64,000 nucleotides of DNA from NCBI RefSeq assembly GCF_016632335.1, contig NZ_JAEPBG010000002.1, positions 434,001 to 498,000 of the forward strand. Direction: 5' to 3'. Both the position numbers and the translations under genes were made by a program. This stretch comes from Noviherbaspirillum pedocola. GTDB taxonomy: Bacteria; Pseudomonadota; Gammaproteobacteria; Burkholderiales; Burkholderiaceae_D. Below the pieces are notes generated by a model. The model did no database searches. It saw only the letters and a list, made by a program, of their open reading frames with translations, and was not told where the DNA came from. Shown piece after piece: positions 1-17,907 of this stretch (position 1 is the stretch's first letter; every line of letters starts with the position of its first letter).

Positions 1-462
1 GAGAAAACGCATCAGATAGCCGGTGTAGTCCTCCAGACGAAACGCGCCGCAGGCCAGCGGCACGGCGCGCGCATCATGCCAGTCGGTCAGATACACATCG
101 TGGTCGGGCAGCATCGTCAGCACGGTTTCACGCAACTGGCTGGCATAGTGGCCCGACATCGGCGCGACGATCAGCAGCGGCGGCTGCGGCGGGCCGGCCG
201 GCTTGCGAAAATGCAGCAGCGTGCAGAAGGGCTGCGTGTCGACGCCGCATTCCTCCACGCCGAGGTCGCGGCCATCAGCAAGACGCACTCGGTCGATGCG
301 GAAGTCGGGCCGGCGGCGCAGCGCATGGGGAAACAGCAGGCCGAGCGCTCCGGCCAGCCGCGCAAGCGCGGCGGCATCCGGCAGTCCGTGCGCCGCGACG
401 ACTCCCGGTGGCGACGGACGCTGTGGTCCATGTCCGGCATCGGCATCCATGATGAGTTGCAT
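1..462 (-). CDS. phaZ: Intracellular polyhydroxyalkanoate depolymerase, N-terminal part (runs off window)
   Basis: The leftward frame reads without a stop from an ATG at 462 to the window edge, giving 154 codons. Residues around 100-150 contain PMSGHYASQLRETVLTML followed by DHDVYLTDWHDARAVPL, a signature of cytoplasmic PHB depolymerases, which release 3-hydroxybutyrate units from storage granules. The catalytic serine (lipase box) would lie beyond the left edge and cannot be checked. The start is uncertain. ATGs at 462 and 450 are both in frame and neither has a strong ribosome binding site. Genes for the same storage polymer occur elsewhere in the window (bktB at 29348, bdhA at 36465). The family call is firm; the N-terminus is not. 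Confidence 0.8.
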   Translation of the reverse strand, partial: MQLIMDADAGHGPQRPSPPGVVAAHGLPDAAALARLAGALGLLFPHALRRRPDFRIDRVRLADGRDLGVEECGVDTQPFCTLLHFRKPAGPPQPPLLIVAPMSGHYASQLRETVLTMLPDHDVYLTDWHDARAVPLACGAFRLEDYTGYLMRFL

Positions 463-727
463 CGAATGATGTTCAAGCGAAAAACGAACACTCTTTCATG
501 GTGAGATGCGCGGCACAAGCTTGCGCGCGATCGTTTCGCAGCGGTTTGGCCGATGCTTGATCTGCATCAGACAGCACGGCGATAGTGCGCTGCGGGAGCA
601 GGGATGGACGCTCGCCACACCACGACACGTCATCGGCATGGCGGGACGGCAATGCTACGCTCGCCGTGGGTGACAGGAAGGGACGCCCAAGCGTCCACGG
701 CTCCAGGCAGTGCAGCGATTCTCGCGC

Positions 728-1375
728 CTACAGTGCCGGCACCAGGCGGCGCACGCTTTCGGCGATCTCGTCCAGCGTGGCCAGCGTGCGGACAAAGCGT
801 TGGCGCTCGCGCCGGCCGCGACGTTCCAGGTCCATGCCGAAAGGGTCCAGCCCGAGCAGGCGTATGCCTGGCTGTTGCAGCCCGGCCAGTTCCTGCAGCA
901 GAGCGGCTTCCTCGGCCAGCGACAGCGCCGGTGCCGTCGGCCATTCGGTGCCGTCCAGCCATCCCATCTGGCCAAAGCCCGCGATGTAGCGCGCGCGTTT
1001 GGGCGTGAACAGGTAGAAATCGAAATCGGCGAGCGCGAGATAGGTCTCCGCGTCGGGCTGGTAACGCAGATAGCGCTGCACCAGCGCTGGCTCGGCGGCA
1101 ATGCGCTGCACGTCGCCAGTCAGCGTCAGGCGGGTTGCTTGTGCCACCGGCTGCACGTCATTGGTGATCAACAGGCTGGCGCGCGCATCGGCGGCGAGAT
1201 TCTTCGCATGCTCGGCCAGGCGGCTGGCGAGAAACACTGGCCGATGGCCCGCGTCCGGCATGAAAGGCAGTGCAGTGGCGAAGGGATAGCCGGGCGCATC
1301 CAGCGCGTGCGTGGCCAAGGCCGCGGACGGTGCGGAATGCAGCAAATGAATGACTTGGTCGGGGGCGATCTTCAT
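728..1375 (-). CDS. hugZ: HugZ-family FMN-binding split-barrel protein
   Basis: This 215-aa protein has the pyridoxamine 5'-phosphate oxidase-like split-barrel fold of the HugZ group. The visible pattern is an N-terminal helix (APDQVIHLLHSAPSAALATHA), then GYPFATALPFMPD, LAEHAKNLAADARASLLI, and a C-terminal FDFYLFTPKRARYIAGFGQM segment where HugZ proteins bind haem. Characterised HugZ proteins degrade haem or help use it as an iron source. The substrate here is inferred from family only. The start at 1375 is preferred over an upstream methionine at 1465 because homologous sequence begins at MKIAPDQV. It appears to be transcribed alone. No haem-uptake genes lie nearby. Confidence 0.75.
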   Translation of the reverse strand: MKIAPDQVIHLLHSAPSAALATHALDAPGYPFATALPFMPDAGHRPVFLASRLAEHAKNLAADARASLLITNDVQPVAQATRLTLTGDVQRIAAEPALVQRYLRYQPDAETYLALADFDFYLFTPKRARYIAGFGQMGWLDGTEWPTAPALSLAEEAALLQELAGLQQPGIRLLGLDPFGMDLERRGRRERQRFVRTLATLDEIAESVRRLVPAL

Positions 1376-1669
1376 GAGTGACGAAAGAGGTTCGGTGAAC
1401 AATTGATGAGTCTGAAAGCCATCATTGTGACGGCATTTGCTGATGTGCCGCAGCGCATTGTGCAAGCGCGTTGAGTACCGATATCGTTACCGATTGGTCG
1501 ATAAAAAGGCATCAAAGTTCGATTGATGTCACTGATTGACACCTTGCGCACATGGCCAGCAATCCACTCTCTGCCCGTGTCATCACCGCTGTGCCACCGC
1601 TTATTGTCGCGGGTTACCGTCGGCCCGTGGGCATTCGAGCCCGGCTGTCTTTTCATCGAACGAGGCACC

Positions 1670-4600
1670 ATGTCTTTTCCCAGCTCCACCAGTAATCTGC
1701 CCCCCACATCCACCAACACTCCGCCCTCCACGCCGCATGCGCGCGGCGTCCATCCTTATCCGCACGTCCCGGCAGCCAATCAAGCCCTGCCCAGTGTGAC
1801 TGTTTTCTCTGACGACAGCCGCGGCTTCGGCCTGTTGAACGATGCAAGCCAGGACAAAGATCTCTCGCCAGAGGCATGTTCCCGTGCCATCGAGGCGCTG
1901 AGCGACTGCGTGGAATTGCTGAACCGCTCCAGCCAGCCCGACCTTGCGCAAGACATTGCGCTTTTCACGCGCATCAAGGTGACGCAAGCCGAAATCGAGG
2001 CCGCCTTGTTGATGGATGCGGACGCGCTGGCGCTGTGGAGGTTGCGCGAGGCGCTGCAGCGCTTCCTGCCGCGGCTGGCAAGGGACTTTGCCGAACCGGA
2101 TGCCCGCGATGCCCACGGCGTGGACTTGATGAAGTTTCTCGAGCAGGAAGATGTACGCACGCTGTGCCATGGCCTGTCCGTGTGCGCCAGCCCCTCGGCC
2201 GGCATGCTGTTCGACCCGGATGCGCGGAAGTTCTTGCGCCCCGCGCTGCAGCAGATCACCGACAGGCTGCTCGAGCGCGCCGTGGAGATCGGCTTTCCGG
2301 AAGAGGTCAGCGCGAATGGCACAACGCTGGACATCCTGAACTGGGTCAGTCGCGCGCTCAAGCACAACATGATCAAGGCAAGCGATGCCATCCGCACGGC
2401 GTTTGCGCTGGCACTGCCGCTGCTGAAAGCCTGGATAGGCGAGAGCAGAACCGATTCTGCTTCGTCATCGAAGGCGCCGTATCTGAGATCCCATCAGCTG
2501 GCCAAGTGTGCGGTGCAGATTGACACAATGCTCAATTTCAGTCTGATCGAACTCGACGACGAGCATCGCCGGACGCTTGCGGAGTGCGTGATTGCGCTGT
2601 GCGAGGCGAGGATCCGAACGTATCTGACGAAGCGGCCGAGCGACAGCGTGACCATCACCAGCATCGGCAACCTTGGCCAAGGACTTGCTCGAAGCCGGCA
2701 TTCTGAATCCTGCCGAGCCGAAGCACCTGGAAGCGCTGGCCGGCGCCACGGAGATGATGAGCTGCATACCGCGCATAGACCTGCTGTCAGGCGACTGCCG
2801 CACGCTGTCGAACGCGTGCAATTTTCTGCGCGTGGTGGAGGAACATGGCGTGCCGGGCATGCCTGGCTTTGCGCGGTACCTGAGGCAATGGAATGCGAGC
2901 TGCAACGGCTTCATCGATACGCTGGCGTCGCAGGCATTCGCGAGAGCATGGCCAAGCGCACAGGCGGCGTCGAACCTGATCAGCTTTGTCAAATGCCGGT
3001 GCAAGGTCTTGCAGAAGCAAGGCGCGGACAATGAACAGTTCGACCTGGTGCGTAGCGCGGCGCAACGCCTGGGGCAGCGTATCGTCGAACTCGGCGGCAA
3101 ATCTTTCGATACCAGGGAGGCGATAGGGGGCTGTTGTCGGGGCTGGCGTATCTGCTGGAAGCGCGGGTAATGGCGGACACGCAGAAGCTGCGCGCTGTGA
3201 TTGCGCAAGTGATGAAGCAGCTGGGCAGCGCGGGGAAGAAGTTCAAGGATGAAGAGTCGCGGCGCACGCTGCTGCCGGCGCTGCTGCGCCTGGAAGCGAT
3301 CACGCTGGACGAAGCGCAGCCGGTGCTGGCGCGGCTGCTGGGGACAGCGGCATCGAGCTCGGGAAGGTACACGCTGCAGGACCTGCAGCGGGCAAGCCGG
3401 GCGCTGGGGGTGGAGGACGAGCCGGTTGCGGCATTGGCGCAGGGGTCATCGGCGCCGACCTCGACCGCATCGAGTGCATCGCTTTCATCGACCTCGTCGA
3501 CCTCACTGCTAGTGCCCTCGGAAGCGACTGTCACGCCGGCGCCGCGCCCGGGCTATACGCGCATCGTCGAAGCGCCCGTATCGTCGGGCATGACAGGCAG
3601 GCCTGTACCGAGTACCTCGCGCAAGATGAACAGCGACTGGCAGCAAGCGCAGAAAACCATCAAGCCCGGCCGGCCCGCGCCGGTCCTGAGCAGTGCGCCG
3701 GTTGTGGTCACTGCAGCGCAAGAAGAAACGTCAGCGGCAAGCCAGGGAAAATCGGCTGCCACGACGAGCTCAAACGCCACGTGGAATACGAAGAACACGG
3801 CGACACAGGGTGCCACGCCATTTGCTACCGCATCGGGCGCAAGCGCGTCACCGCAGGATATGGGCAAGGGCAAGCCCGGGCAGGCGCAAGCCTCGCCGGC
3901 CGGCAACGATGGCGGGCAGAAGAACCGCAAGGATGACACAGGCGCGTCCAAAAAAACGAAGGGCAAGGCAAACGTCAAAGCGGCGACGCCGAAGCAGCAG
4001 TGGTTTGCGCTGATCAAGGATGCAGGCGCGTTGCAGGACTTGAAGCGGCTGGCAACCGACCCCGCGGTGCTCAATGCGCGGGACGGAGCAGGCAAGCAGC
4101 AGCGCGGCGGGCTGTTTCATGCGCTGGTTGCCGGAAGGAGTGACGTGGTGGCATGGCTGATGGCGCCGGAGACGGGATATCGACTGGAGCAAAAGGTCGG
4201 CCCGCTGCTGAACGCGGTATGCGAAGTCATAGACCTGGTGGGCGACGCGCAGCTGCAGGCGATTGCCTGCTTCATTGATAGTCTGAATACGACGGCGAGC
4301 GCCGAGCTCAGCACGTTCTTCAAGGAGCGCCCCGCCTTGATTGCCGGTGTGCAGAATCTGCTGAAAAAAAGGGGCTGGTCGCCGCCGGACCGGCGCAAGC
4401 GGATGCGGCATCAAACGGTGGCATAAAGGGCAAGGCCAGGAAGGCGCCTCCCAGCGAAAAGCTGCATCAAGCAGACAGGCGCGGCGACACCGCGCTGGTT
4501 TCCGCTTGCAAAAATGGACGCCTCGATGTGGTACAGCGGCTGTTGAAGGAAGGGGCGCGGGTAAATCAGGTCGATGCAGACCACGGCACTGCACTGATAG

Positions 4601-4818
4601 TCGCTTGCCAAAACGGTCATCTCGCCATCGTGCAGGCGCTGCTGCGCTCGGGGGCGCAGGTGGATAAGGTGAATGCGCATGGCACCAACGCGTTGATAAT
4701 CGCTGCCCGAGAGGGCCATGCCGACATCGTGCGAGCGCTACACCAGGCGCTAAAGCAAGCGCGGGCAACGCCGAGCCAGGCGAATGTAGAGGCGCCGCAA
4801 TCTCCTTCCGGGGAATGA
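1670..4818 (+). pseudogene. Ankyrin-repeat effector-like gene interrupted by three frameshifts
   Basis: One continuous protein of about 1040 aa can be followed across three reading frames. The start at 1670 (MSFPSSTSNLPP) follows a GAGG site. The first segment runs to about 2672 and has a Ser/Thr/Pro-rich N-terminus and a helical region. An extra base near 2670-2673 shifts reading to IGN-LAKDLLEAGILNP. At the G5 run 3126-3130 it shifts back to LLSGLAYLLEARVM, leading into a Ser/Ala/Thr/Lys linker (about 3400-3990). At the A7 run 4373-4379 a third shift opens the C-terminus, which carries ankyrin repeats such as DTALVSACKNGRLDVVQRLL and HGTALIVACQNGHLAIVQALL. A disordered N-terminus, helical body and ankyrin tail suggest a secreted or host-directed protein, but no secretion signal is proven. 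It is either a decayed gene or a sequence with run-length errors. Confidence 0.7.
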
Positions 4819-4910
4819 CAAGATCGTAGCGGATGAGCTTATTGCCGTGCTCGAGCGTCCTCGACTTTTCGACTCACGCTACGTGGTTTCCTAAGACTCC
4901 TGCCTTGAGC

Positions 4911-5345
4911 TCAGGACCGGTCCGGCTCGGACGGCGTGGAAATCTCGGACAGCGTGCGGTCGACCTCGGCCGAGTGCTTGGTCGCAAGGTCCCCGAGCGC
5001 GACGATGCCGATCAGCTTGCCGGTGCTGCGGTCCATCACCGGCATGCGCCTGATCTGCGCATCGCGCATGATGTCCATCACCTCATTGACTTCCTGGTCG
5101 GCAAAGCAATAGTGCATGCTTGCGCTCATCACCTCCTCGACCCGGGTCGAGCCAGGCGCCTTGCCCACGGATGTGGCGCGCACCGTGATGTCGCGGTCCG
5201 TGACCAGGCCGACCAGGCGGTCGCCCTCGCATACCGGGATCGAACCGACGTTGCGTTCATTCATGATGCGCGCGGCTTCCTGGATGCTGGCGCCGGGCGC
5301 GATCGTGGTCACGTCCGGGGTCATGATGTCCGAGATGTGTTGCAT
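4911..5345 (-). CDS. Two-CBS-domain protein
   Basis: This 144-aa protein consists almost entirely of a tandem CBS pair. The first domain (about residues 8-62) contains DIMTPDVTTIAPGASIQEAARIM and RLVGLVTDRDITVR. The second (about 72-128) contains EEVMSASMHYCFADQEVNEVMDIM and LIGIVALGDLA. CBS pairs bind adenosine nucleotides and usually regulate a partner protein. No catalytic domain is fused here, so the partner is unknown. It ends a leftward group with the methyltransferase upstream, 35 bp away. The start ATG at 5345 follows an AAAGGAAA purine-rich site. Confidence 0.9.
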   Translation of the reverse strand: MQHISDIMTPDVTTIAPGASIQEAARIMNERNVGSIPVCEGDRLVGLVTDRDITVRATSVGKAPGSTRVEEVMSASMHYCFADQEVNEVMDIMRDAQIRRMPVMDRSTGKLIGIVALGDLATKHSAEVDRTLSEISTPSEPDRS

Positions 5346-7810: not shown

Positions 7811-9433
7811 TTACTTGGCGCCGGCGGTTTCGCCGATCTCGGCGTCTTGCGCCGTTGCTGTCGAGGTTTCGGCACGGCCATCGGTATAGGTCGCGGCATT
7901 GCGCAGTTGTCCCGGCGCCGGCTTGCCCTGCAGCGGCGGCAAAGCCTTGGCCCGTTCGAGATCGATGCCGGCGATCTCGGCCACACGGCGGCCATAGTCG
8001 GGATCGCAATGCCACAGGTGCCAGACCATGCGCAGCTGGATAGGCTCCGGACATTGCTTCAGGTCGCCGCCGACGTTGGCCACCAGTTCGTCGCGCTCCC
8101 ACTCCTCGAAAGTGCGATAGCGTTCGCCAGCCTGGCGGTAGTCATCCTGGGTGCGCGAAGTCTGGTAACGGCCGAGATGGCCTTCCACATACTGGTGATA
8201 TTCCTTCGCGGGCTTCTCGGCTTCGCGCAGGCCGCCCAGGCTGCTGGGCTCGTAATTGATGTGCCTGTTGCCGGCATCGGCGTCGACGTAATACGCCATC
8301 TGGCCATCGCGCTGATTGGTCATGGCGCGCGCCTTGTCCTGCGGCGCATTGATCGGCAGTTGCAGATAGTTGGGGCCGACGCGGTAGCGCTGCGTATCCG
8401 AATACGACAGGGTGCGGCCCTGCAGCATCTTGTCGTCCGAGAAGTCAACGCCTTCCACCAGCACGCCGGTACCGAAGGCGGACTGCTCGGTCTCGGCGAA
8501 GACATTCTCCGGATTGCGGTCCAGCACCATGCGGCCCACTGGCAGCAGTGGAAATTTGTCCTCAGGCCAGCGCTTGGTGTCGTCCAGCGGATCGAAGTCG
8601 AGTTCCGGATGGTCATCGTCGCTCATGATCTGCACGCAGAACTCCCATTCCGGAAAGTCGCCGCGCTCGATCGCTTCATACAGGTCCTTGGTCGCGTGGC
8701 CGACATCGCCGGCCTGGATCTCGGCAGCCTGCGCCGCGGTCAGATTGCGCACCCCCTGTTTCGGCTGCCAGTGGAACTTCACCAGGTGCGCCACGCCCTG
8801 GTCATTGACCAGCTTGTAGGTGTTCACGCCGGCGCCTTCCATCTCGCGGTAATTCGCCGGTATGCCCCAGGGGCTCTTGACCCAGGTCACCATGTGCAGG
8901 GCTTCCGGCGTCTGCGACACGAAGTCATAGAAGCGCCACGGTTCCTGGCGGTTCGTCACCGGGTCCGGCTTGAAGGCATGGATCATGTCGGGAAACTTGA
9001 TCGCATCGCGGATGAAGAAGATCTTCAGGTTATTGCCGACCAGGTCCCAGTTGCCATCCACGGTCTTGAGCTTGACCGCGAAGCCGCGCGGATCGCGCGC
9101 GGTCTCGGGCGAATCCTTGCCGCCGATCACGGTGGAAAAGCGCACGAACACGGGCGTGCGCACGCCGGTCTCGTTCAGCACCCGCGCGCAGGTATATTTC
9201 GATGCCGGCTCATTGCCGATCCGGCCGTAGGCTTCGAAATAGCCATGCGCGCCCGTGCCACGCGCATGCACCACGCGCTCGGGAATGCGCTCGCGGTCGA
9301 AGTGGGTGATCTTTTCGATGAACTGGTAATTCTCCAGCGTGGCCGGGCCGCGCTCGCCGACGCTGCGCATGGCCTGGTTGTCTCGCACCGGATGGCCCTG
9401 GCGCGTGGTCAGGGTGGATTTTTCATTGCTCAT
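7811..9433 (-). CDS. Monofunctional haem catalase
   Basis: This 540-aa haem catalase breaks hydrogen peroxide into water and oxygen. The distal histidine lies in [15 protein letters not shown], the distal asparagine in [15 protein letters not shown], and the proximal tyrosine in [17 protein letters not shown]. The catalase core is followed by an immune-responsive-type C-terminal segment ([22 protein letters not shown]) and a short Ala/Thr tail. The length sits slightly above the usual 480-510 aa of small-subunit catalases and well below the 750-aa large-subunit class, so the flavodoxin-like C-terminal domain is absent. It has no signal peptide, so it is cytosolic. The start at 9433 follows a GAGGTTTCC site. 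Confidence 0.95.
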
Positions 9434-9821: not shown

Positions 9822-9855
9822 GTCGGCGCAGGAAATATTCCGTTTCGCCGCGTCG

Positions 9856-9916
9856 CGTAGGGCCTGCTCCGCCCACGCGTCTTTTCGATGGCCGCGTGGG
9901 CGGAGCAGGCCCTACG
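9856..9916. repeat. GTAGGG palindrome, B...B' form
   Basis: Perfect 24-bp inverted arms (9856-9879 and 9893-9916) flank a 13-base loop. Each arm begins CGTAGGGCCTGCTCC and ends GCCCACGCG. It belongs to the same family as the elements at 12260, 17697 and 29219, but both arms are of the B type (GGCCTGCTCC core). It lies between the 64-aa gene and the end of the RecD-like helicase gene. Confidence 0.9.
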
Positions 9917-9952
9917 AAGAGCGATCCTTCCCCGACACTTTCCCCTGTCCAG

Positions 9953-12202
9953 CTATCGATACCCCCGAGCCGTCATCTTGCGCATATTGCCCAGCGTGCG
10001 CTCGATCAGCAGCGCATTGCGCTGCGGCGCGGGCCTTGCGCACAGCGCATGAATAAGCGGCGCTTCACCCAACACGGTGAGCCGCTCCCGTGCACGTGAA
10101 AACGCGGTGTACAGCATGCCGCGATGCACGAAGGCCGGCGAGCCGCCGGTCAGCACCACGATCACTTCCCGGTATTCCGAACCCTGGGCCGCATGCACGG
10201 TGAGCGCATAGGCCAGCGCCAGCGCTTCCAGCGCGCCGCCGGGGAAATGGATGCGGCGGCCATCATCGAGCAGCAGCTCGAGGTAGAGCACATTGCGGCC
10301 GGCGGTGTCGCAGGCATAGTCTTCGATACGGCCGGTATCGCCATTCACCACGCTGCCCCCAGTTTCGCTTTCTGCCGCCGCGCCGTCATCGCTGCCCAGC
10401 GCCAGGTTCCTGCGGATCAGTACCCGGTCACCCACGCGTAGCGCGGTGCCCGGAATACGCCTGCCATGCGGATTGATGCGCTGACGCAGCACCTCGTTCA
10501 GATAGGTCGTGTTCCAGCCCGGCATATGGATGTCGCCCTTGCGGCGCGGCATCAGGAGCGCAATGCGCTCCAGGCCGCAGCGCTCGGCCGCATCCAGATA
10601 GGCATCAATCACCGGCGCAAGCCCCACCTCACCGGGTGGCGGCAGGCCGCGCACGAAATGCACACCGGGCAGATCGCGGCAGGCGATGTCGCCGTCGCGT
10701 GTCTGGCGCACCAGTTCCAGGATGCCGCCATCGTTGCGATGCGCACGATGCAATTGATGATGGTCGCCCGGCAGCTTCAACAGACTCTGCAGCACGTCGC
10801 CCGGCCCGACCGAGGGTAGCTGGCCGGTATCGCCGAGCAGGATCAGGTGGCAGTCGGCCGGCAGCGCATCGAACAGCGCGCGCGCCAGCGACAGGTCCAG
10901 CATCGAGCTTTCATCGACCACTACGATGTCGGCAACCAGCGAGCGCTGCCGCTCCGCCGCGCCCGCTTCCATCACGCCCAGCAGGCTGTGCAGCGTGCAG
11001 GCATTGCGGCCGTGGCGCGCCACCCGCGTGGCCAGCACTTTCGCAGCCTTGCCGGTCGGCGCGCAGAACAGGATGGTGCGATCGCGCGCGACATGGGCCA
11101 GCACTTCCATCAGCGCGGTCTTGCCGCAGCCGGGGCCAGCGGTGATGGTGTGCAGCGTATGGGTGGACGTGAGCACGCCGAGGATGGCAGCGCGCTGTTC
11201 GGAGTCGAGCGTGAAGCCCGCGCCCATGCCGGCTTCGGCGGCATCGATCTCGGCGCCGAGCTCGATGCCGGTGACGGATGAGATTGGCGCGGCAATGCCC
11301 AGCGCGCGGCGCGCGAGATGGCGCGCCAGCAACACTTCGGCATGGTAGAGATGGCGCGGATAGTAACGCTCATCTTCCAGCACTAGCGGCTCGCCGGCTT
11401 CCAGCGCCGCGGCAATGGCCGCCTCCGGCGCCACCGCGCCATCCCAGGCGGCAATGCGTTGCGCGAGCATGGCGCCATCAAGAAAGCTGTGGCCGCTGCG
11501 CTCGCAACCGTCGGCAAGCACAAACGCGGCCAGCGCCGCCAGGCGATTGCGTGCGTCGCGTGCCAGCCCCAGGCATTCGAGCGCGACACGGTCAGCCGCC
11601 GGGAAGTTGTAGCCTTCGACCTGGCGTATCGGCGCATAGGGATCGGCAGCGAAAAACGTCCATGCCTGACGCACCGGCTCCGTCTCGCCGGCCAACGGCA
11701 GCAGCCACTCGGCCAGGCGGCGCAACACCGCGGCGCCGATGCCGGCGTTGCCGATGCGGCCGGAGAGTTCGCGGCATATCAGGGACGCGGTGTCCTGCGT
11801 ATCAAGCGCCTTGATCTTGCGCCGGGTGACGACGGAAAAGTCGAGCGAGGCCGGCCGTTCGACCAGGATCTTGCGCAATGCGTCGAGCCGCTCGCCGTAA
11901 TGCTCGACCAGTTTCTTCGCGGTGGCTTCGCCGCAGCCGCGGTAGTTGGCCATCAGGTGCGCGACCAGCGCGTCGGTGGAAGAGGGCAGATCGATGGCCG
12001 CCGACGCCACCGCGATCTGACGGCCGTAGCGAGGATGCTCGAGGATCTGTCCTTCGAAGCGATAGCGGTTGCCCGCCGCCAGCGTGGCCAGCGCTTCGCC
12101 GACGCAGGTCAGCCGGCGCCCATCGTCCAGGCGCATGCTGCCGCGGCCCCATTTCTGGTTGTAGACGGAGAGGGAGGAGAGGACGCCGGAGATCTGGGTC
12201 AT
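9953..12202 (-). CDS. recD2: RecD2-like SF1B DNA helicase
   Basis: This 749-aa protein has an N-terminal region with a helix-hairpin-helix-like stretch (NYRGCGEATAKKLVEHYG, about residues 86-103). The helicase core has Walker A GPGCGKT at 356-362, Walker B VVVDESSML at about 427-435 and a C-terminal UvrD-like TVHAAQGSEYREVIVVL segment with a final SRARERLTVLGE motif. RecD2 helicases unwind DNA 5' to 3' independently of RecBC and act in repair. It lies 173 bp downstream of ssb in the same direction, with a GTAGGG palindrome between, and may be part of the same recombination block. The length is typical of RecD2 rather than RecD (about 600 aa). Confidence 0.85.
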   Translation of the reverse strand: MTQISGVLSSLSVYNQKWGRGSMRLDDGRRLTCVGEALATLAAGNRYRFEGQILEHPRYGRQIAVASAAIDLPSSTDALVAHLMANYRGCGEATAKKLVEHYGERLDALRKILVERPASLDFSVVTRRKIKALDTQDTASLICRELSGRIGNAGIGAAVLRRLAEWLLPLAGETEPVRQAWTFFAADPYAPIRQVEGYNFPAADRVALECLGLARDARNRLAALAAFVLADGCERSGHSFLDGAMLAQRIAAWDGAVAPEAAIAAALEAGEPLVLEDERYYPRHLYHAEVLLARHLARRALGIAAPISSVTGIELGAEIDAAEAGMGAGFTLDSEQRAAILGVLTSTHTLHTITAGPGCGKTALMEVLAHVARDRTILFCAPTGKAAKVLATRVARHGRNACTLHSLLGVMEAGAAERQRSLVADIVVVDESSMLDLSLARALFDALPADCHLILLGDTGQLPSVGPGDVLQSLLKLPGDHHQLHRAHRNDGGILELVRQTRDGDIACRDLPGVHFVRGLPPPGEVGLAPVIDAYLDAAERCGLERIALLMPRRKGDIHMPGWNTTYLNEVLRQRINPHGRRIPGTALRVGDRVLIRRNLALGSDDGAAAESETGGSVVNGDTGRIEDYACDTAGRNVLYLELLLDDGRRIHFPGGALEALALAYALTVHAAQGSEYREVIVVLTGGSPAFVHRGMLYTAFSRARERLTVLGEAPLIHALCARPAPQRNALLIERTLGNMRKMTARGYR

Positions 12203-12259
12203 GAGGGAGCGAGGTGCGGGAGATTACGGCGGAAAGGATTATCCGCAGGCGGCTTTTCT

Positions 12260-12328
12260 GTAGGGTGGGCGCAGCCCACGCGGTGATCGAACGGGATCGA
12301 ACAAGCGCGTGGGCGGAGCAGGCCCTAC
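12260..12328. repeat. GTAGGG palindrome, A...B' hybrid form
   Basis: The left arm is type A (GTAGGGTGGGC...GCCCACGCG) and the right arm is the complement of type B (CGCGTGGGCGG...GGCCCTAC), with a 23-base loop. The outer six bases and the inner CCCACGCG pair, while the arm centres differ. It sits between the starts and ends of two leftward genes, recD2-like and ssb. Confidence 0.88.
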
Positions 12329-12375
12329 GGCTGTGCTGCGGCCATCACGACGGCCGCAGCACGAGCGATGCCGCA

Positions 12376-12834
12376 TCAGAACGGAATCGCGTCATCCTCG
12401 AACTCGAACTCCGCCGGCTGCGGGCGAGCGCTCTTGCGCGTGATGGCGCTGCTCTGTTCCGCTTCGGGCTTGTGCTCCGGCGCGTCCTCGGCATGGCTGT
12501 TGCGTCCGCCAAGCATGCGCAGGTCGTCGGCGATGATCTCGACCACGTAGCGTTCGACATCATCCTTGCCGGTCCACTTGCGCGTCTGCAGACGGCCTTC
12601 GACATACACCAGCGAACCTTTCTTCAGGTACTGGCCCGCGATCTCCGCCAGCTTGCGGTACAGCACCACGCGATGCCACTCGGTGGCTTCGCGCTTTTCG
12701 CCGGTGGCCTTGTCTTTCCAGGTCTCGGTGGTTGCCAGCGTGAAGTGGGCGACCGCGTCGCCGTTGGCGGTGGAGCGGGTCTCCGGATCACGTCCCAGGT
12801 AGCCGATCAGGGTGACTTTGTTCAGGGTGCTCAT
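12376..12834 (-). CDS. ssb: Single-stranded DNA-binding protein
   Basis: This 152-aa protein has an OB fold starting [21 protein letters not shown], continuing through the conserved [15 protein letters not shown] and [14 protein letters not shown]. It ends in a short linker and the acidic tip DDAIPF that recruits repair partners. It coats single-stranded DNA during replication and recombination. Its place downstream of Gp157 and a RecA-fold phage ATPase suggests it serves this cassette and may be a second SSB beside the housekeeping copy, which would normally lie near uvrA. The 77-bp gap to the upstream gene contains no obvious terminator. Confidence 0.93.
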
Positions 12835-12911
12835 GGCTTACTCCCAAGGGTGGTTAAAAACGTTGAAGCAGGGTTGTCGTGCCGTGCAGTGCGTCTCAGT
12901 GCCTCGGCGCC

Positions 12912-13418
12912 TCAGTGAATCTCCAGCCGCGTGCGCTGTTCAGCATGCGCGCCCGGCACCGCATTGCCGGCGCGGATCGCGGCCGCGATCGCGCGCTTGT
13001 CCGGCGTCGGTTTCGGCGCTTCGTGCCGGACCAGGAACTCATCCGGCAGCGCATCCTCGGCATCGATCACCACCTGCGGCGGATTGCGCCGCAGGGCCAG
13101 CGAAAACAGCGCGGTGGTGACGCGCTCGCGCTGCGCGGTCTGCATCAGGTCGGCGATCAGTTCGCGGCCGCGCTCGGCCGCTCGCGTCAGCGCTTCATGA
13201 CGCTGCTGCAGACTGGCGATGGTTTCCTCCACGCCGCGCGCGGCGCTTTCGACATTGCGCACCATCTTCGCCAGATTCTCGAGGCGCTCGTCCAGCGGGC
13301 CGGCGATGGACTCGAGCGTGTCGGCGATCAATTGCGGATCGTCATGGCGCTCGGCCAGCACCTCGGCCAGCTGGCGGTATTGCGCCGCCAGCTCGAAGGC
13401 TTCGAAGACCGGGTTCAT
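12912..13418 (-). CDS. Siphovirus Gp157-family protein
   Basis: This 168-aa protein is mostly coiled-coil in its N-terminal two thirds (LIADTLESIAGPLDERLENL, then RGVEETIASLQQRHEALTRA). It ends in the diagnostic Gp157 segment LFSLALRRNPPQVVIDAEDALPDEF, followed by APKPTPDKRAIAAAIRAGN. Gp157 proteins occur in phage recombination modules beside ATPases and SSBs. Their biochemical role is not settled. The start overlaps the stop of the upstream ATPase by four bases (ATGA), so the two are translationally coupled. Confidence 0.88.
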   Translation of the reverse strand: MNPVFEAFELAAQYRQLAEVLAERHDDPQLIADTLESIAGPLDERLENLAKMVRNVESAARGVEETIASLQQRHEALTRAAERGRELIADLMQTAQRERVTTALFSLALRRNPPQVVIDAEDALPDEFLVRHEAPKPTPDKRAIAAAIRAGNAVPGAHAEQRTRLEIH

Positions 13419-14437
13419 GCTGCAATGCCCACCGGTTCATGCTGGGCTTCGAGCCAGGCCTTGCGCTCGTTCTTCAGCGCGGTCAGCTCAGCCAGGGCCT
13501 CGTTGTCCGACAGCGCGGTCGCGGCGCGATAGCCCAGCGAGAAGGCCTTGAACAGCTCATCCAGCGTGTTGGCGTTCGAGATGGCATTGCATGCCTCGAC
13601 GCGCTGCTCTTCGCTCATGGCGCGCTTGACCGGCGCATCCACGCCCGAGTCGAGCCAGGCCAGCAGCTGGTGGCCAGTCTCCATGTCCGGCTTGAAGATG
13701 GTGCCGTCGAACAGCCGGGTGCGGTCCTTGCCGGCGAAGGCCATGTGATGCACATCGAGCTCAAAGAAGGTGGTGAACTCGTATTCGATGCCATCGCGCA
13801 TCACCGGCGCCAGGCCGACTTTCCTCACCACGCTCTTGCCGGTGCGGTCATCCTTTTCCTGCACGTACTCGGTCTTGGCACGCATCGTCGCGATGATGTG
13901 GCAGCGGCTTTGCAGCAGCGCTTCCACCAGTGCATTGTGCTCGGGTGTGACCTGGCGCCATGCCTGCCAGCTGTTGCCCGACTTATCGGCAATCTTGCCC
14001 TGACGGTCCAGCGAGCCGCCTTCGCCGGTCCACGCATGCGACAGGCTGTCGATGATGATGGTCTGCACGCCGGCATCCTCGAGCGCATGGATCGCCTCGA
14101 TGTAGCGCGCCGGCGAATACGGCGGCGTCAATTGCAGCACGTCGTAGCCTTCCGGCAGCAGGTCGGCGTACAGATCGCCGCTGCCGTGCTCGGTATCGAT
14201 CATGCCGATGCGTCCGCCCAGGCCGCCGGCGATCAGGAGCGCGGAGTAGGTCTTGCCGCTGCCAGCGGGGCCCGACATGCCAAGGCGGAGCTTGGCGCGG
14301 CGTTTCGTGGCGCGATGAATTTCAAATCCAGCCATGACTTTTTTCCTTTCCTTGTTTTCGTATTCGAACTCGTGTTGCCGGCCTGCCTCTTCGAACCACT
14401 GCATGCCGCCGTCGTCCCAACCTGCCTGCTCACTCAT
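13415..14437 (-). CDS. Phage-type RecA-fold ATPase (Sak4-like recombinase)
   Basis: This 340-aa protein has Walker A GPAGSGKT at about residues 56-63, an acidic IDTEHGSGDLYADLL strand, and Walker B TIIIDSLSHAW. This is the pattern of single-domain phage RecA/Rad51-like recombinases (Sak4 group), which work with a cognate SSB. It is longer than the shortest Sak4 proteins by a C-terminal helical extension (VKRAMSEEQRVEACNAI onward). The start is uncertain. An ATG at 14470 overlaps the upstream stop (TGATG), the ATG at 14437 has an AAAGGA site, and the ATG at 14335 has a purine-rich site and begins at the conserved MAGFEIHRATKRR. Neighbours Gp157 and SSB support a recombination role. Confidence 0.8.
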   Translation of the reverse strand: MSEQAGWDDGGMQWFEEAGRQHEFEYENKERKKVMAGFEIHRATKRRAKLRLGMSGPAGSGKTYSALLIAGGLGGRIGMIDTEHGSGDLYADLLPEGYDVLQLTPPYSPARYIEAIHALEDAGVQTIIIDSLSHAWTGEGGSLDRQGKIADKSGNSWQAWRQVTPEHNALVEALLQSRCHIIATMRAKTEYVQEKDDRTGKSVVRKVGLAPVMRDGIEYEFTTFFELDVHHMAFAGKDRTRLFDGTIFKPDMETGHQLLAWLDSGVDAPVKRAMSEEQRVEACNAISNANTLDELFKAFSLGYRAATALSDNEALAELTALKNERKAWLEAQHEPVGIAA

Positions 14438-14469
14438 CGTCGATTCCTTTTGCACCCTGTTCGGTTGCA

Positions 14470-15114
14470 TCAATGCAGATTGCGTGGCGCTGGCTGTGCC
14501 GGCGCGCCCACCACCCGCGACAGGTCGCCCGGCGGCAGCAGGCTTTCCACCTGCGCGGCGCTCAGGCGCCCCTTCTTCACCGCGTCAGTGAGCGCGCGCT
14601 CGCGGTCTTTCATGTCGCGGCCCAGCGACGGCATCCAGCGCACCGGATCGCGCCGCACGCGCGCCGCCTGCACCGCGCGCGCATAGTGCTCGGCGAACAC
14701 GCGGCGGGCGCCGGCGTTATCGCCGGACTCCAGCAGCGGCAGCGCCATGCCCCAGGCCTGCGCCATGTCTTCGGTCCACACCGTCGAAGCCGCCTCGTCC
14801 AACGGCAACAGGCTCCAGGCTTCATCGACATCCGGACGGCCGTCGGCGATGCGCACGATGATGTCGCCCACCTTGAGCCGGCCCTGCACCTCCATGCGGC
14901 AGCGCGACAGCGCCGTCATGATCGCGTTCTCATCGAACTCGGCGAGGTCGCCGGCGAGGATGCGCGCGGCCGCGATCGACAGCGACTGGCCGCAGATTTC
15001 CGAAGTCACCCGGATCGCATCCACCAGCGCCGGCGGCACGGTGTCGCTGTTGGCAGCCAGCTCGAAGTCGCTCGCATCGACCGGTTGCGGAAAATGAACT
15101 CTCAGCTTTTTCAT
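14470..15114 (-). CDS. Phage-associated protein of unknown function
   Basis: This 214-aa protein starts at ATG 15114 (MKKLRVHFPQPVDASDFELA) behind an AGCTGGAG site. The body is helical, with AARILAGDLAEFDENAIMTALSRCRMEVQGRL and AWSLLPLDEAASTVWTEDMA segments and a basic C-terminal region ending in SLLPPGDL. It resembles proteins seen in phage replication and recombination regions, but I cannot assign a function. It is the first gene of the leftward cassette downstream of the candidate SOS promoter at 15458-15507. Its stop overlaps a possible start of the ATPase, consistent with an operon. Confidence 0.65.
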   Translation of the reverse strand: MKKLRVHFPQPVDASDFELAANSDTVPPALVDAIRVTSEICGQSLSIAAARILAGDLAEFDENAIMTALSRCRMEVQGRLKVGDIIVRIADGRPDVDEAWSLLPLDEAASTVWTEDMAQAWGMALPLLESGDNAGARRVFAEHYARAVQAARVRRDPVRWMPSLGRDMKDRERALTDAVKKGRLSAAQVESLLPPGDLSRVVGAPAQPAPRNLH

Positions 15115-15457
15115 AAGACTCCAGCTTTGGCTGTCAATAGAGGAAACAGAATGCGGACCCACTGGCCCATGGCGCTTGTCGAAGAGGAAGACGCCGGAAA
15201 TGTTTGTCAATGCGCTCCGGTGAAAACACCGCCGCTGCGCCATGCCTATGCCCGGGATCCGAGCTTGTTCATAAGATCAAAGTGACGAAATCGTCGCGAG
15301 AAGTGAGAAAGGCGCGTCAGGAACCTAGCGCTTGCATCTTCGGTTCAGGGAATACTTCAGTCGGGCGCGGTGCCCGACTTAACCAATGTATTGGAATTAA
15401 TTCCAGCAGGCATTTGCCATCCGTCTTGGGCCAGAAACAGCGCCATGTTGCGCCGAA

Positions 15458-15477
15458 CACTGTATGTAAACACAGTA
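15458..15477 (-). promoter_or_regulatory. LexA-type SOS box
   Basis: The leftward strand reads TACTG-N10-CAGTG (CTG-N10-CAG core; plus strand CACTG-N10-CAGTA), close to the Escherichia coli LexA consensus TACTG-N10-CAGTA. It begins one base downstream of a candidate -10 element, so a bound repressor would cover the transcription start. The first gene downstream is the phage-type cassette at 15114. Confidence 0.65.
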
Positions 15478-15478
15478 C

Positions 15479-15507
15479 ATAGTAGCTGGAAAAGCGAGCA
15501 TTTGCAA
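15479..15507 (-). promoter_or_regulatory. Candidate sigma70 promoter of the recombination cassette
   Basis: On the leftward strand, TTGCAA (15507-15502) and TACTAT (15484-15479) are separated by exactly 17 bases, each matching four of six consensus positions. Transcription would begin near 15472, inside the SOS-like box, leaving a leader of about 355 bases before the first start codon. Correct spacing next to the box is the main support. Confidence 0.5.
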
Positions 15508-15998: not shown

Positions 15999-17723
15999 AT
16001 GGAGGAACGCGGGGAAGGTGGCGCCATGGGCGCTGGCGCAAGGGAGATCCTGCATCGTATGGCGGCCTGGTGCGCCGTTGCTGCGGCGGCAGCGCTGACT
16101 GCGTGCGCTGGGCCGGGCACTAGCGCCTGTGGCAATGGCGATGTGGTTTGCACCGGCTCAGGCGCGGTGCGCGGCATGGCCGATGGCGACACGATCGCCT
16201 TCAAGGGCATCCCGTATGCGCAGCCGCCGGTGGGCAGCCTGCGCTGGCGCGCGCCGCAGCCGGTGCAGCCCTGGCAGGGCGTGCGTGACGGCAGCCGCTT
16301 CGGGCCGGTCTGCCCGCAATGGGATGGCCGGGCCGTCATCGGTAGCGAAGACTGCCTCACGCTCAACATCTGGCGGCCGAAGGAGATGCCGCGCCAGCCG
16401 CTGCCGGTAATGGTCTTCCTGACCGGTGGCGGCAACCATGCGTTTTCCGGCCAGGGCTCGCCCGGCTTTGGCGGCGTGAACTACAACGGCAAGCTGGCGG
16501 CACCGCAGGGCGTCATTCACGTGAGCTTCAACAACCGGCTCGGCGCGCTCGGCTTTCTGGCGCATCCGGCGCTGGACGCCGAAAACCCGGAACATGTCTC
16601 CGGTAATTACGGCAGCCTCGACCAGATCGCGATGCTGCGCTGGCTGCAGCAGAACATCGCTGCATTCGGCGGCGATCCGAAGCGCATCATGTTGTTCGGC
16701 ACCTCGGCCGGCGGCGGCAATATCTGCGCGCTGATGACCGCGCCCGCAGCGCGTGGCCTGTTCCAGGCGGCGGCCATGGAAAGCAGCGTGCCCACCGGCT
16801 GCGAACTGCAGACACTGGCCGACGCCGAAAACGGCACCGGGGCGCTGCTTTCGCAAAAGCTCGGCTGCGGCCCGAATGCGGATGCGGCCTGCCTGCGAGG
16901 CAAGAGTCCGCAGGACATCGTCGCCGCGCTGCCGGGCAGCTTCGGCGTGCAGCCGCGCCAGCACGGCCCGAACATGGATGGCCAGGTATTCCCGCAGCAG
17001 CCGATCGCGGCGATACGCAAGGGCGAGCATGCCCACATGCCGGTCATCATCGGCAACGCCACCGAGGAAACCATGCAATGGGCCGCGGGGCTCGGACCGG
17101 CGAAGGACGCAGCCAGCTATGAAGCCGCGCTGACCAGGGCTTTCGGCGCGAACGAAGCGGCGCGGGTGCGCGAGCAGTATCCGATGGCTGCCTATGCCTC
17201 GCCGCACATGGCGCTGGTGCGCGCGACCACCGACGCCTATTTCACCTGCCAGAGCCGGCGCGTGGCGGCTGCGCTTGCGACTTCGCAGTCGCAAGCGGTA
17301 TACCGCTACCTGTTCGACCATGCGCTGGAAAATGATGCCGAGCTCAAGGCCCAGGGCGCGATCCATACCGTTGAGCATGCGTTTCTCTTTCCATGGGAAG
17401 GCAGCTACCGGCCCACCGCGACCGACCTCGCCATACAGCAGCGCATGGTGGCGGACTGGACCGGCCTGGCGAAGACGGGCGCACCGGGCGCTGCCTGGAG
17501 CGCGACTTCGCCGCGCGATCCGGCGTATCTCTACATAGGCTCGCGCATCGAGATGCGGCATGAGGATTCGGCGCATTGCGCGTTCTGGGACACCGTGCGG
17601 CTGCCGTGGCCGCATAGTGAGCCAAGGGATGGACGGGCCGCGGTCGGCCCGTTGCCGCCTTGCTGGAATCATAGGGGCAGTTCGATTTGCAGTCGTGTAG
17701 GGTGGGCACAGCCCACGCGGTGA
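15999..17723 (+). CDS. Exported type-B carboxylesterase with a repeat-derived C-terminus
   Basis: This 574-aa type-B carboxylesterase starts behind AAAAGGAAATT; an ATG at 16026 is an alternative. The N-terminus has a hydrophobic segment ending AAALTACAG, consistent with a lipoprotein or exported protein. The core has the oxyanion-region GGGNHAFSG and the nucleophile elbow FGTSAGGGN (Ser in GTSAG). The acid and His follow the family order, with the His probably in HTVEHAFLFPW. It hydrolyses carboxylic esters; the substrate is unknown. The last eight residues before the stop (VGWAQPTR) are encoded by the GTAGGG palindrome at 17697, whose sequence also supplies the stop codon. This suggests insertion over the original 3' end. 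Confidence 0.88.
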   Translation: MEERGEGGAMGAGAREILHRMAAWCAVAAAAALTACAGPGTSACGNGDVVCTGSGAVRGMADGDTIAFKGIPYAQPPVGSLRWRAPQPVQPWQGVRDGSRFGPVCPQWDGRAVIGSEDCLTLNIWRPKEMPRQPLPVMVFLTGGGNHAFSGQGSPGFGGVNYNGKLAAPQGVIHVSFNNRLGALGFLAHPALDAENPEHVSGNYGSLDQIAMLRWLQQNIAAFGGDPKRIMLFGTSAGGGNICALMTAPAARGLFQAAAMESSVPTGCELQTLADAENGTGALLSQKLGCGPNADAACLRGKSPQDIVAALPGSFGVQPRQHGPNMDGQVFPQQPIAAIRKGEHAHMPVIIGNATEETMQWAAGLGPAKDAASYEAALTRAFGANEAARVREQYPMAAYASPHMALVRATTDAYFTCQSRRVAAALATSQSQAVYRYLFDHALENDAELKAQGAIHTVEHAFLFPWEGSYRPTATDLAIQQRMVADWTGLAKTGAPGAAWSATSPRDPAYLYIGSRIEMRHEDSAHCAFWDTVRLPWPHSEPRDGRAAVGPLPPCWNHRGSSICSRVGWAQPTR

Positions 17724-17755
17724 TTGGCGTGCCGCGTGGGCGGAGCAGGCCCTAC
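17697..17755. repeat. GTAGGG palindrome, A...B' hybrid form, overlapping the esterase 3' end
   Basis: The left arm is type A (GTAGGGTGGGC...GCCCACGCG), the right arm the complement of type B, and the loop is 13 bases. The left arm is translated in the esterase frame as VGWAQPTR and then stops at TGA. The remainder is noncoding, before the antiporter gene. Confidence 0.9.
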
Positions 17756-17907
17756 GAACTACGAACGGAAGATGCGGCGATTCCTCGCACGCGAAAACGA
17801 TCCGGCCGTTTTTTCCTTGCGCATCGCTCTCGCTGCGGCCTAACCGGAACTGCCGCGTTGCACTATCGTCCTACCCCTGTCTTCCACCTTTTTCGCCAGG
17901 ACCGAGC

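Follow-up and report, generated by a model that had tools for sequence, protein, structure and literature searches.

A four-gene cassette on the minus strand of the window, the 64,000-nucleotide stretch of Noviherbaspirillum pedocola DNA analyzed here, is best explained as a set of temperate-phage early genes that probably became a chromosomal, LexA-controlled cassette for annealing or restart. Its sequence is best read as a module for annealing that DNA damage would induce, with a possible link to helicase loading in replication restart. If this is true, phage recombination and replication genes have been made into a lasting bacterial DNA damage tool, and regulation of the cassette has passed from the phage to the SOS system of the host.

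In the direction of transcription, the cassette encodes a phrog_6028 protein (214 aa, positions 14470-15114; PHROG E=3.8e-49), an AAA_24/RecA-core, Sak4-like ATPase (340 aa, 13415-14437; Pfam AAA_24, 1.3e-23), a Gp157 family protein (168 aa, 12912-13418; PF05565, E=1.9e-38) and a single-stranded DNA-binding protein, SSB (152 aa, 12376-12834; PF00436, E=1.3e-39). A gene for a RecD2-like helicase follows on the same strand, and the profile matches agree with this five-gene reading, as given in an earlier note on this DNA. Its description of the genes as mostly translation coupled was too strong, as there is a single overlap, between the ATPase and Gp157 genes (ATGA), and the remaining gaps measure 32, 77 and 173 nt. 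The Gp157 protein also matched phrog_253 (3.1e-41), whose PHROG description is Mu Gam-like end protection. The SSB gene is one of three in its genome, and the C-terminal tip of the protein, DDAIPF, has the IPF ending found in 15/15 relatives read.

The best PHROG match of the ATPase was phrog_1366 (2.4e-89), for which no function is given, whereas the Sak4 family, phrog_124, matched at 1.4e-8. We therefore call the protein Sak4-like rather than filing it as Sak4. Its structural model (pLDDT 72, pTM 0.58) gave 62 PDB matches at E<=0.001 with TM scores of about 0.3, and RecA or Rad51 accounted for 46 of the best 50 of these 62, indicating that the modeled protein has a RecA core fold. According to a report on phage HK620 (PMC5928155), Sak4 of that phage anneals strands without strand exchange, and the last six residues of its SSB are required for Sak4 binding. 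The strand exchange activity proposed earlier as one option for the cassette is for this reason less likely than stated. The two systems are alike in pairing a RecA-core ATPase, a likely annealase, with an SSB of its own, and the C-terminal tip of the cassette SSB would recruit the ATPase as in HK620. The window cassette differs in being chromosomal and behind a LexA box, in its phrog_1366 ATPase with a weaker phrog_124 match and in adding an N-terminal DDGGxQW extension, a linkage to Gp157 and a protein of replication position.

The ATPase was present in 22/22 loci (the window and 21 named loci), together with the phrog_6028 protein in 19, SSB in 18, Gp157 in 17, a phage-type repressor in 15 and RecD2 in 6; locus L033 ends inside the ATPase gene, and its later genes lie outside the view of these counts. 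Gp157 and SSB genes are absent beside some of these cassettes. We found the cassette in 4/4 genomes of the window's own genus, in 9/15 of one further genus (near full length, plus one fragment, L077/G172) and in 5/6 of another. In a sample of the family, 30/245 genomes matched, three of them (G051, G078 and G143) with distant or prophage-like copies. The order sample gave 3/399 matches, and the only one outside the family (1/399) groups with a viral row. The distribution is patchy. In the ATPase tree, the 22 cassette rows and L037, L040, L042 and L075 formed one clade (support 100/99) containing 0/85 viral rows, and the DDGGxQW extension occurred in 21/22 cassette rows and in L037, L040 and L042, compared with 0/85 viral rows. 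In the pairs computed, dN/dS was 0.02-0.32 for ATPase, Gp157, SSB and RecD2; the phrog_6028 protein evolved fastest in pairs with the window (0.43-0.51). Most cassette genes are under purifying selection.

It might be argued that the genes are passive leftovers of a decayed prophage, with a box that once served SOS regulation of the phage itself. All four proteins do have phage homologues, one copy in another genus (L077) is decayed, and the gene order on one viral contig, L172, is almost that of the cassette, with an ERF annealase. We nevertheless regard this reading as quite improbable, given the single bacterial clade without viral rows, the purifying selection, and the order phrog_6028-ATPase-Gp157-SSB, which none of 163 viral loci showed. 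Looking up to 1.8 kb upstream of the ATPase gene, we found an exact LexA box in 12/18 cassette loci versus 3/80 viral loci. As the earlier note had said, integrase and structural genes are missing nearby: none was among the best 25 of 33 PHROG families for 46 window open reading frames (ORFs), nor among the best 25 families per list for 118 flank ORFs of 12 relatives, in which terminase and capsid genes did not appear either. A Pfam scan of ten window proteins and ten flank proteins of relatives likewise gave no integrase or structural gene, and the locus does not classify as a functional prophage.

Domestication of the cassette is instead well supported by these sequence comparisons. In related Oxalobacteraceae chromosomes, it sits among ordinary, metabolic genes rather than only in intact prophages, which the earlier note had named as the finding that would speak against its proposal; it belongs to one bacterial clade, and the box is conserved in most loci. 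The suggested comparison of flanking genes had a mixed outcome. Both flanks are common to L038, L041, L073 and L074, and likewise to L034 and L071, whereas none is shared in the six pairs of the four own-genus genomes over the compared stretches, RecD2 aside. The unshared flanks fit mobility or rearrangement as well. It may be that the cassette moves as a unit, as a small mobile element whose own recombination genes serve transfer or integration by annealing. The clearest case is the pair L024 and L072, which are 92.8% identical over a match of 3.7 kb that stops at the SSB stop codon, with different flanks on either side; flanks also differ in the other own-genus pairs. However, no 10-mer, direct or inverted, was common to the 300-nt stretches at both junctions of this pair, and a clean empty site for L024 was not obtained in G003, where the left neighbor region is present and the right side differs. 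The families listed included no integrase or transposase, both flanks are shared in other loci, and the only match beyond the family groups with a viral row. We consider such an element unlikely, and retention of the cassette by descent remains our preferred reading.

As to its source, a phage may have supplied the layout, since L172 has a similar order with a different annealase. On this contig, phrog_6028, ERF annealase, Gp157, SSB and NinB genes follow each other in this order on one strand, which suggests that they also function together in phages. The L172 block has the same families in the same order as the cassette, and its ERF protein and the cassette ATPase share a C-terminal segment some 45 residues long (49% with the L029 protein, 38% with that of the window). 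It differs in that an ERF-type annealase replaces the RecA-core ATPase, in belonging to a viral contig and in having two small ORFs and other genes interspersed. We also considered that the operon had joined two phage arms that always lie on opposite strands, and rejected this: among nine viral contigs that combine a phrog_6028 gene with one or more of Sak4, Gp157 and SSB, the genes lie on opposite strands in eight and on the same strand in L172. Plasmid pALVIN01 carries a Sak4-type ATPase, Gp157 and SSB in the same order as the cassette but has no annotated phrog_6028 gene. Our literature search, which covered few subscription journals, returned nothing pairing Sak4 with Gp157, and no such cassette was described among the matches listed.

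A predicted LexA (SOS) box, TACTGTGTTTACATACAGTG, lies at positions 15458-15477 on the minus strand and matches TACTGT-N8-ACAGTR exactly. The promoter hexamers, directed toward the cassette (minus strand, 15479-15507), are TTGCAA (15507-15502) and TACTAT (15484-15479), separated by 17 nt and located one base upstream of the box, all as first reported. The exact pattern occurs in five places in the whole genome (7.24 Mb), the window box included. Sites with at most one mismatch precede imuA, umuDC-like genes and recA, and lexA itself has an exact CTGT-N8-ACAG box upstream, so that the window box resembles the sites of known SOS genes in its own genome. In a reversed-pattern control, which covers the LexA pattern at up to two mismatches, the control matched more often (218 and 233 times) than the pattern did (113 and 101 times), and for this reason only sites with no or one mismatch were used.

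The box is conserved across the cassette loci. The 1 kb upstream of the first gene contains an exact core box in 15/22 loci, compared with 0.155 expected, and there was none in the other 406 kb of these loci. Four further loci have 7/8 core bases at the homologous place, and three of the 22 have none; in the full-cassette loci L028, L029 and L039, no good LexA box was found. The window hexamers are weak (8/12 consensus score) and absent from the list of a consensus promoter scan, so that alone they prove nothing. Nevertheless, TTGN3-N17-TANNAT directly precedes the box, toward the cassette, in 15/21 box-bearing rows, and away from it in 0/21. With a conserved box overlapping the promoter, the cassette has, at the sequence level, the features of a predicted SOS regulon member. 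The imuA-imuB-dnaE2 genes form a mutagenesis cassette for lesion bypass. Both it and the window cassette are accessory sets of several genes in one genome that LexA is predicted to control, imuA lying behind a LexA box, but the former serves lesion bypass, whereas the window cassette encodes phage-type recombination and replication proteins.

The box is palindromic and might instead serve the carboxylesterase gene on its other side (15999-17720), whose start is 522 bp away, leaving the cassette constitutive or otherwise controlled; the cassette start is 343 nt away in the opposite direction. This appears highly improbable. The genes on the other side vary between most species, whereas box and cassette stay together, the orientation of the hexamers favors the cassette, and less than about 100 nt separate the box from the ATPase gene downstream of it in L075, a basal locus. 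With the box controlling the cassette, read-through must be assumed, because the first gene starts 343 nt past the box and an antisense gene lies between them in most relatives.

In the window, this leader (15115-15457, minus strand) lacks the cassette-specific repressor gene of most relatives. In 20/31 rows it holds this gene, antisense to the cassette; a remnant was found in one row and no gene in 10. All 13 members compared (13/13) matched phrog_12107, a transcriptional repressor family, and phrog_5736, and we count the repressor as phage type by these repressor-family matches; the two members scanned against Pfam had no family at the curated cut-off. The window's own genome had no match to the gene, and 27/245 family genomes did. 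A search for viral relatives with back-translated patterns gave one weak locus only, L256. The motif TACC-N5-GGTA lies beside the promoter, exact, in 6/22 rows (L024, L072, L031, L034, L071 and L043) and is absent from L026, L027, L028 and L032, all of which bear the repressor gene. It is only a lead as a candidate operator. Of the 22 rows with a phrog_6028 gene, an open repressor gene is present in 19 and a LexA box, exact or near, also in 19; both occur in 16 rows, and no row lacks both. The relatives thus appear to show the shift of control half-way, which makes the order of events testable.

The phrog_6028 protein of the window had no Pfam match at E<=1 and no NCBIfam match at E<=0.1. A PDB sequence search with its profile gave two matches (best E, 0.46), and its AlphaFold model (pLDDT 74.5, pTM 0.51) gave no Foldseek match at E<=0.001 among either PDB or viral structures. 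Most viral homologues lie directly behind a replication initiator, which is the position of lambda P, and often overlap it by a few bases; the upstream neighbor was phrog_11527 in 60/62 cases and an O-like initiation family in 30/62. The position behind an O-type initiator is a feature of the viral homologues only, the cassette itself having no initiator, and in this it differs from lambda O-P. Membership in the lambda P family (PF06992) was rejected, as a lambda P control matched at 6.4e-62 and the cassette protein did not match. The Gp157 and phrog_6028 families are both poorly known, and the cassette offers a natural setting for asking what they do.

According to one report, lambda P kills the host cell, probably via DnaB (PMC3640518). 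A lambda P-like phrog_6028 protein might tie up the DnaB helicase and stop chromosome replication during SOS as a damage-induced brake, while ATPase and SSB protect or anneal exposed strands. The lambda P position of the viral homologues agrees with this, and toxicity would account for the finding that none of the 22 cassettes with the gene is without both a repressor gene and a LexA-like box. With neither a Pfam lambda P match nor a fold match, however, we give the brake little credence. Somewhat more plausible, though still doubtful, is a damage-induced, origin-free replication restart machine, in which the host kept the helicase-loading partner of the phage without its origin-binding initiator, in one operon with the annealing ATPase, SSB and Gp157, and annealed or invaded strands mark the loading site in place of a phage origin. 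If true, the cell would have, under LexA, another route of recombination-dependent replication that does not need RecA.

Returning to the annealing module that we favor, its early phage genes would have entered an ancestor of the Noviherbaspirillum/Herminiimonas/Paucimonas group and been inherited since then, with some losses. LexA would repress the cassette, and, to judge from the box, DNA damage would lead through RecA filaments and LexA self-cleavage to transcription of the operon. SSB would then coat single-stranded DNA, its IPF tip recruiting the Sak4-like ATPase, which, by analogy with HK620 Sak4, would anneal SSB-coated strands. Gp157 might protect ends or act as a cofactor, as its PHROG description hints, and the phrog_6028 protein, given the gene position of its viral relatives, probably interacts with replication proteins of the host. 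In this way, replication could restart from annealing or recombination intermediates. In most relatives, the phage-type repressor encoded inside the cassette would add a second layer of control; by comparison with them, the window cassette seems to have lost it and to be controlled by LexA only.

The RecD2-like helicase (749 aa, 9953-12202, minus strand; 343 bits against the TIGR01448 cut-off of 500) is an optional neighbor of the cassette, which its gene adjoins in 7/31 rows. The 173-nt gap before this gene contains a REP-like palindrome (12259-12329, no strand assigned), and the gene probably forms its own transcription unit. Related copies of the palindrome lie at 9852-9918 and 17692-17758.

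The cassette reads from its sequence as a likely accessory SOS cassette of phage recombination and replication genes, its control being inferred from the LexA box; the finding of the earlier note is real and extends beyond what its author could see. All genes lie on the minus strand. The first, beginning at 15114, encodes the phrog_6028 protein (214 aa) and is followed within 15114-12376 by genes for an AAA_24/RecA-core ATPase (340 aa), a Gp157 protein (168 aa) and, ending at 12376, an SSB (152 aa). The single overlap is between the ATPase and Gp157 genes (ATGA); gaps of 32, 77 and 173 nt separate the other neighbouring genes. Downstream of the SSB gene lies that of a RecD2-like helicase (12202-9953, minus strand). 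It adjoins the cassette in 7 of 31 loci compared and, in the window, is set off from the SSB gene by 173 nt and a REP-like palindrome; we regard it as a common neighbour rather than a cassette part. Copies of this palindrome (CGTAGGGCCTGCTCCGCCCACGCG and its complement) were found at 9852-9918, 12259-12329 and 17692-17758, two of them bracketing the RecD2 gene.

Upstream of the cassette, the described arrangement of TTGCAA (15507-15502), 17 nt, TACTAT (15484-15479) and the box TACTGTGTTTACATACAGTG (15477-15458) was confirmed. The hexamers score 8/12 and are absent from the list of the consensus promoter scan. The box stands out: exact TACTGT-N8-ACAGTR occurs at five places in the 7.24-Mb genome, the window box included. 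Sites with at most one mismatch also precede imuA, umuDC-like genes and recA, named by reading of translations, and lexA (TIGR00498 match) carries an exact CTGT-N8-ACAG box. With up to two mismatches, a reversed-pattern control gave more matches in this genome than the pattern itself, and two-mismatch sites were therefore left unused.

In the relatives, exact CTGT-N8-ACAG was present within 1 kb upstream of the phrog_6028 gene at 15 of 22 loci, versus 0.155 expected from shuffles, and nowhere in the remaining 406 kb of the same loci. L033, L035, L041 and L074 have a near box (7 of 8 core bases) in the homologous place; L028, L029 and L039 have no LexA box worth the name. Among the 21 loci with an exact or near box, TTGN3-N17-TANNAT stands directly before it pointing towards the cassette in 15 and away from it in none. 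An exact box within 1.8 kb upstream of the ATPase gene was found at 12 of 18 cassette loci versus 3 of 80 viral loci, 70 of which contain the full 1.8-kb stretch. LexA would repress the cassette, and the SOS response would induce it.

An ATPase scan of named genomes, whose query of six short peptides from the window protein is biased towards close relatives, returned 21 loci with titles of Oxalobacteraceae genera or unplaced Burkholderiales/Burkholderiaceae MAGs. Together with the window these 22 loci hold the ATPase in 22, phrog_6028 in 19, SSB in 18, Gp157 in 17, the repressor discussed below in 15 and RecD2 in 6. Whole-genome searches found the ATPase in 4/4 genomes of the genus and 30/245 of a family sample, three of these 30 (G051, G078, G143) having distant or prophage-like copies. 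Two further genera gave 10/15 (one a fragment) and 5/6, and an order sample 3/399; one of these three genomes lies outside the family, and its copy groups with a viral sequence.

The cassette recurs outside prophages, among ordinary genes. The genes that Pfam and PHROG searches identified in 118 flanking ORFs of 12 relatives and 46 window ORFs were ordinary ones, metabolic genes among them. The families listed for those ORFs (25 of 71, 25 of 33 and 25 of 132) included no terminase, capsid or integrase, and one flanking ORF matched a nicking-at-origin family. L038, L041, L073 and L074 have both flanks in common, as do L034 and L071, and some other pairs share one flank. Within the genus, four genomes were compared pairwise (six pairs), and in the stretches compared no pair shared anything beyond the cassette and RecD2 except matches below 100 nt.

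In a tree of 115 ATPases, 22 cassette sequences, those of the reduced loci L037, L040 and L042 and the basal L075 formed one group (support 100/99) containing none of 85 viral sequences, several of which are long-branched, with doubtful joins among them according to a program warning. L076 and the Oxalobacter copies (L044, L079) fall within the viral sequences and probably belong to prophages. Cassette ATPases have an extended N-terminus, whose DDGGxQW motif occurs in 21/22 of them and in L037, L040 and L042, and in 0/85 viral ATPases (84 with an upstream stop inside the locus). In nine pairs, dN/dS was 0.02-0.32 for the ATPase, Gp157, SSB and RecD2, 0.02-0.11 for the repressor (usable pairs) and 0.06-0.51 for the phrog_6028 protein, highest in both window pairs. 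The cassette is one bacterial clade, kept by selection.

Some members are reduced. L037 and L040 retain just the ATPase and SSB genes: the repressor, phrog_6028 and Gp157 genes were not found there, nor was a clear LexA box. L077 (G172) is decayed to ATPase and SSB pieces, with neither repressor nor first gene found; it retains an exact LexA box and has one flank in common with L026. In L075 (G010), a 141-aa ORF without a Pfam match (8779-9201, minus strand) occupies the usual place of the phrog_6028 gene, and a box and dyad stand directly before the ATPase gene.

Most relatives have, on the strand opposite the cassette, a further gene that separates the box from the first cassette gene; it encodes about 125-165 aa and is present in 20 of 31 loci, each time with an open frame. 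L030 retains a remnant, and 10 loci, among them the window and L025, lack the gene, to which the window's own genome has no match. All 13 members scanned matched phage repressor families. In the family sample, 27/245 genomes matched the repressor at a cut-off of 1e-10. Of the 22 that passed 2e-49 as well, only G061 and G214 have no ATPase match; the gene is thus nearly cassette-specific. In G214 it lies at 279-674 of its contig. As the promoter beside the box points to the cassette, transcription set off by DNA damage would cross the repressor gene in antisense on its way to the first cassette gene. A dyad, TACC-N5-GGTA, lies beside the promoter, exact in 6 of 22 loci and with one mismatch in further loci; in some, similar dyads also occupy the interval from the repressor gene to the first gene. 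It is absent from the repressor-less window, L025 and L030, but also from the repressor-bearing L026, L027, L028 and L032. Every one of the 22 loci that carry the first gene has an open repressor gene or an exact or near box: each of these occurs in 19 loci, and the two together in 16. The repressor would be a second switch in most relatives and is absent from the window.

Phage kin bear on the origin of the layout. Phage LESphi3 has a phrog_6028 homologue directly behind replication initiation protein O, and a Synechococcus phage record names its homologue 'replication protein P'. The best 80 of 92 viral phrog_6028 loci gave 62 distinct upstream neighbours (five loci had none, the rest were duplicates). 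Of these neighbours, 60 matched phrog_11527, for which no function is stated, and 30 matched a family of O-like initiation proteins. Nine viral contigs combine phrog_6028 with at least one of Sak4-like ATPase, Gp157 and SSB in one locus, spans of 8-10 kb letting wider-spaced pairs escape. On eight, the genes lie on opposite strands, like the two arms of a lambda-like phage, with the ATPase, where present, 5-6 kb off. The ninth, L172 (IMGVR_UViG_3300047272_000198, 383-5190), carries on one strand phrog_6028, two small ORFs, an ERF annealase (PF04404, 5.9e-24), Gp157 (1.8e-47), SSB and NinB. Its ERF and the cassette ATPases have a C-terminal piece in common, with 49% identity over 45 residues to L029 (single-comparison E 1e-7) and 38% over 50 residues to the window ATPase. 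Given this order and likeness, the cassette may have inherited its layout whole from an L172-like phage whose annealase was different, or its genes may have been brought together afterwards. None of 163 viral loci showed the four genes in exactly the cassette's order.

We count the box, operon, conservation, clade, RecA-type ATPase fold and SSB tips as established. The fold comes from a structural model with 62 Foldseek matches at E<=0.001, RecA or Rad51 accounting for 46 of 50 among the matches listed. According to a study of HK620 Sak4 (PMC5928155), annealing by that protein is ATP-dependent and stimulated by its own SSB via the last six residues, and strands are not exchanged; by analogy, the cassette SSB would direct annealing by the ATPase. 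From its gene position, the phrog_6028 protein may contact the host replication machinery. Production of lambda P is described in PMC3640518 as lethal to the host, probably via DnaB, which would explain the control kept over such a gene. The phrog_6028 protein itself failed the lambda P profile test, and its model had no fold matches.

Further sites in the window's own genome (G000) deserve mention. Another SSB (L092, C56:123689; 196 aa) shares 70% identity with the cassette SSB across 114 residues and adjoins an ORF with a primase-like zinc finger, by reading of its translation. A LexA-like box at C23:28985-29004 (L009) shortly precedes an unknown 103-aa ORF, a possible further SOS gene. Two others (L005, C38:8245; L013, C67:114380) are followed by the same sequence, GAATGCGCC.GCGGTGCGCT, which suggests a dispersed repeat carrying a LexA-like box. 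An exact box at C7:53477-53496 (L001) lies near an ORF whose translation reads as tyrosine-recombinase-like.
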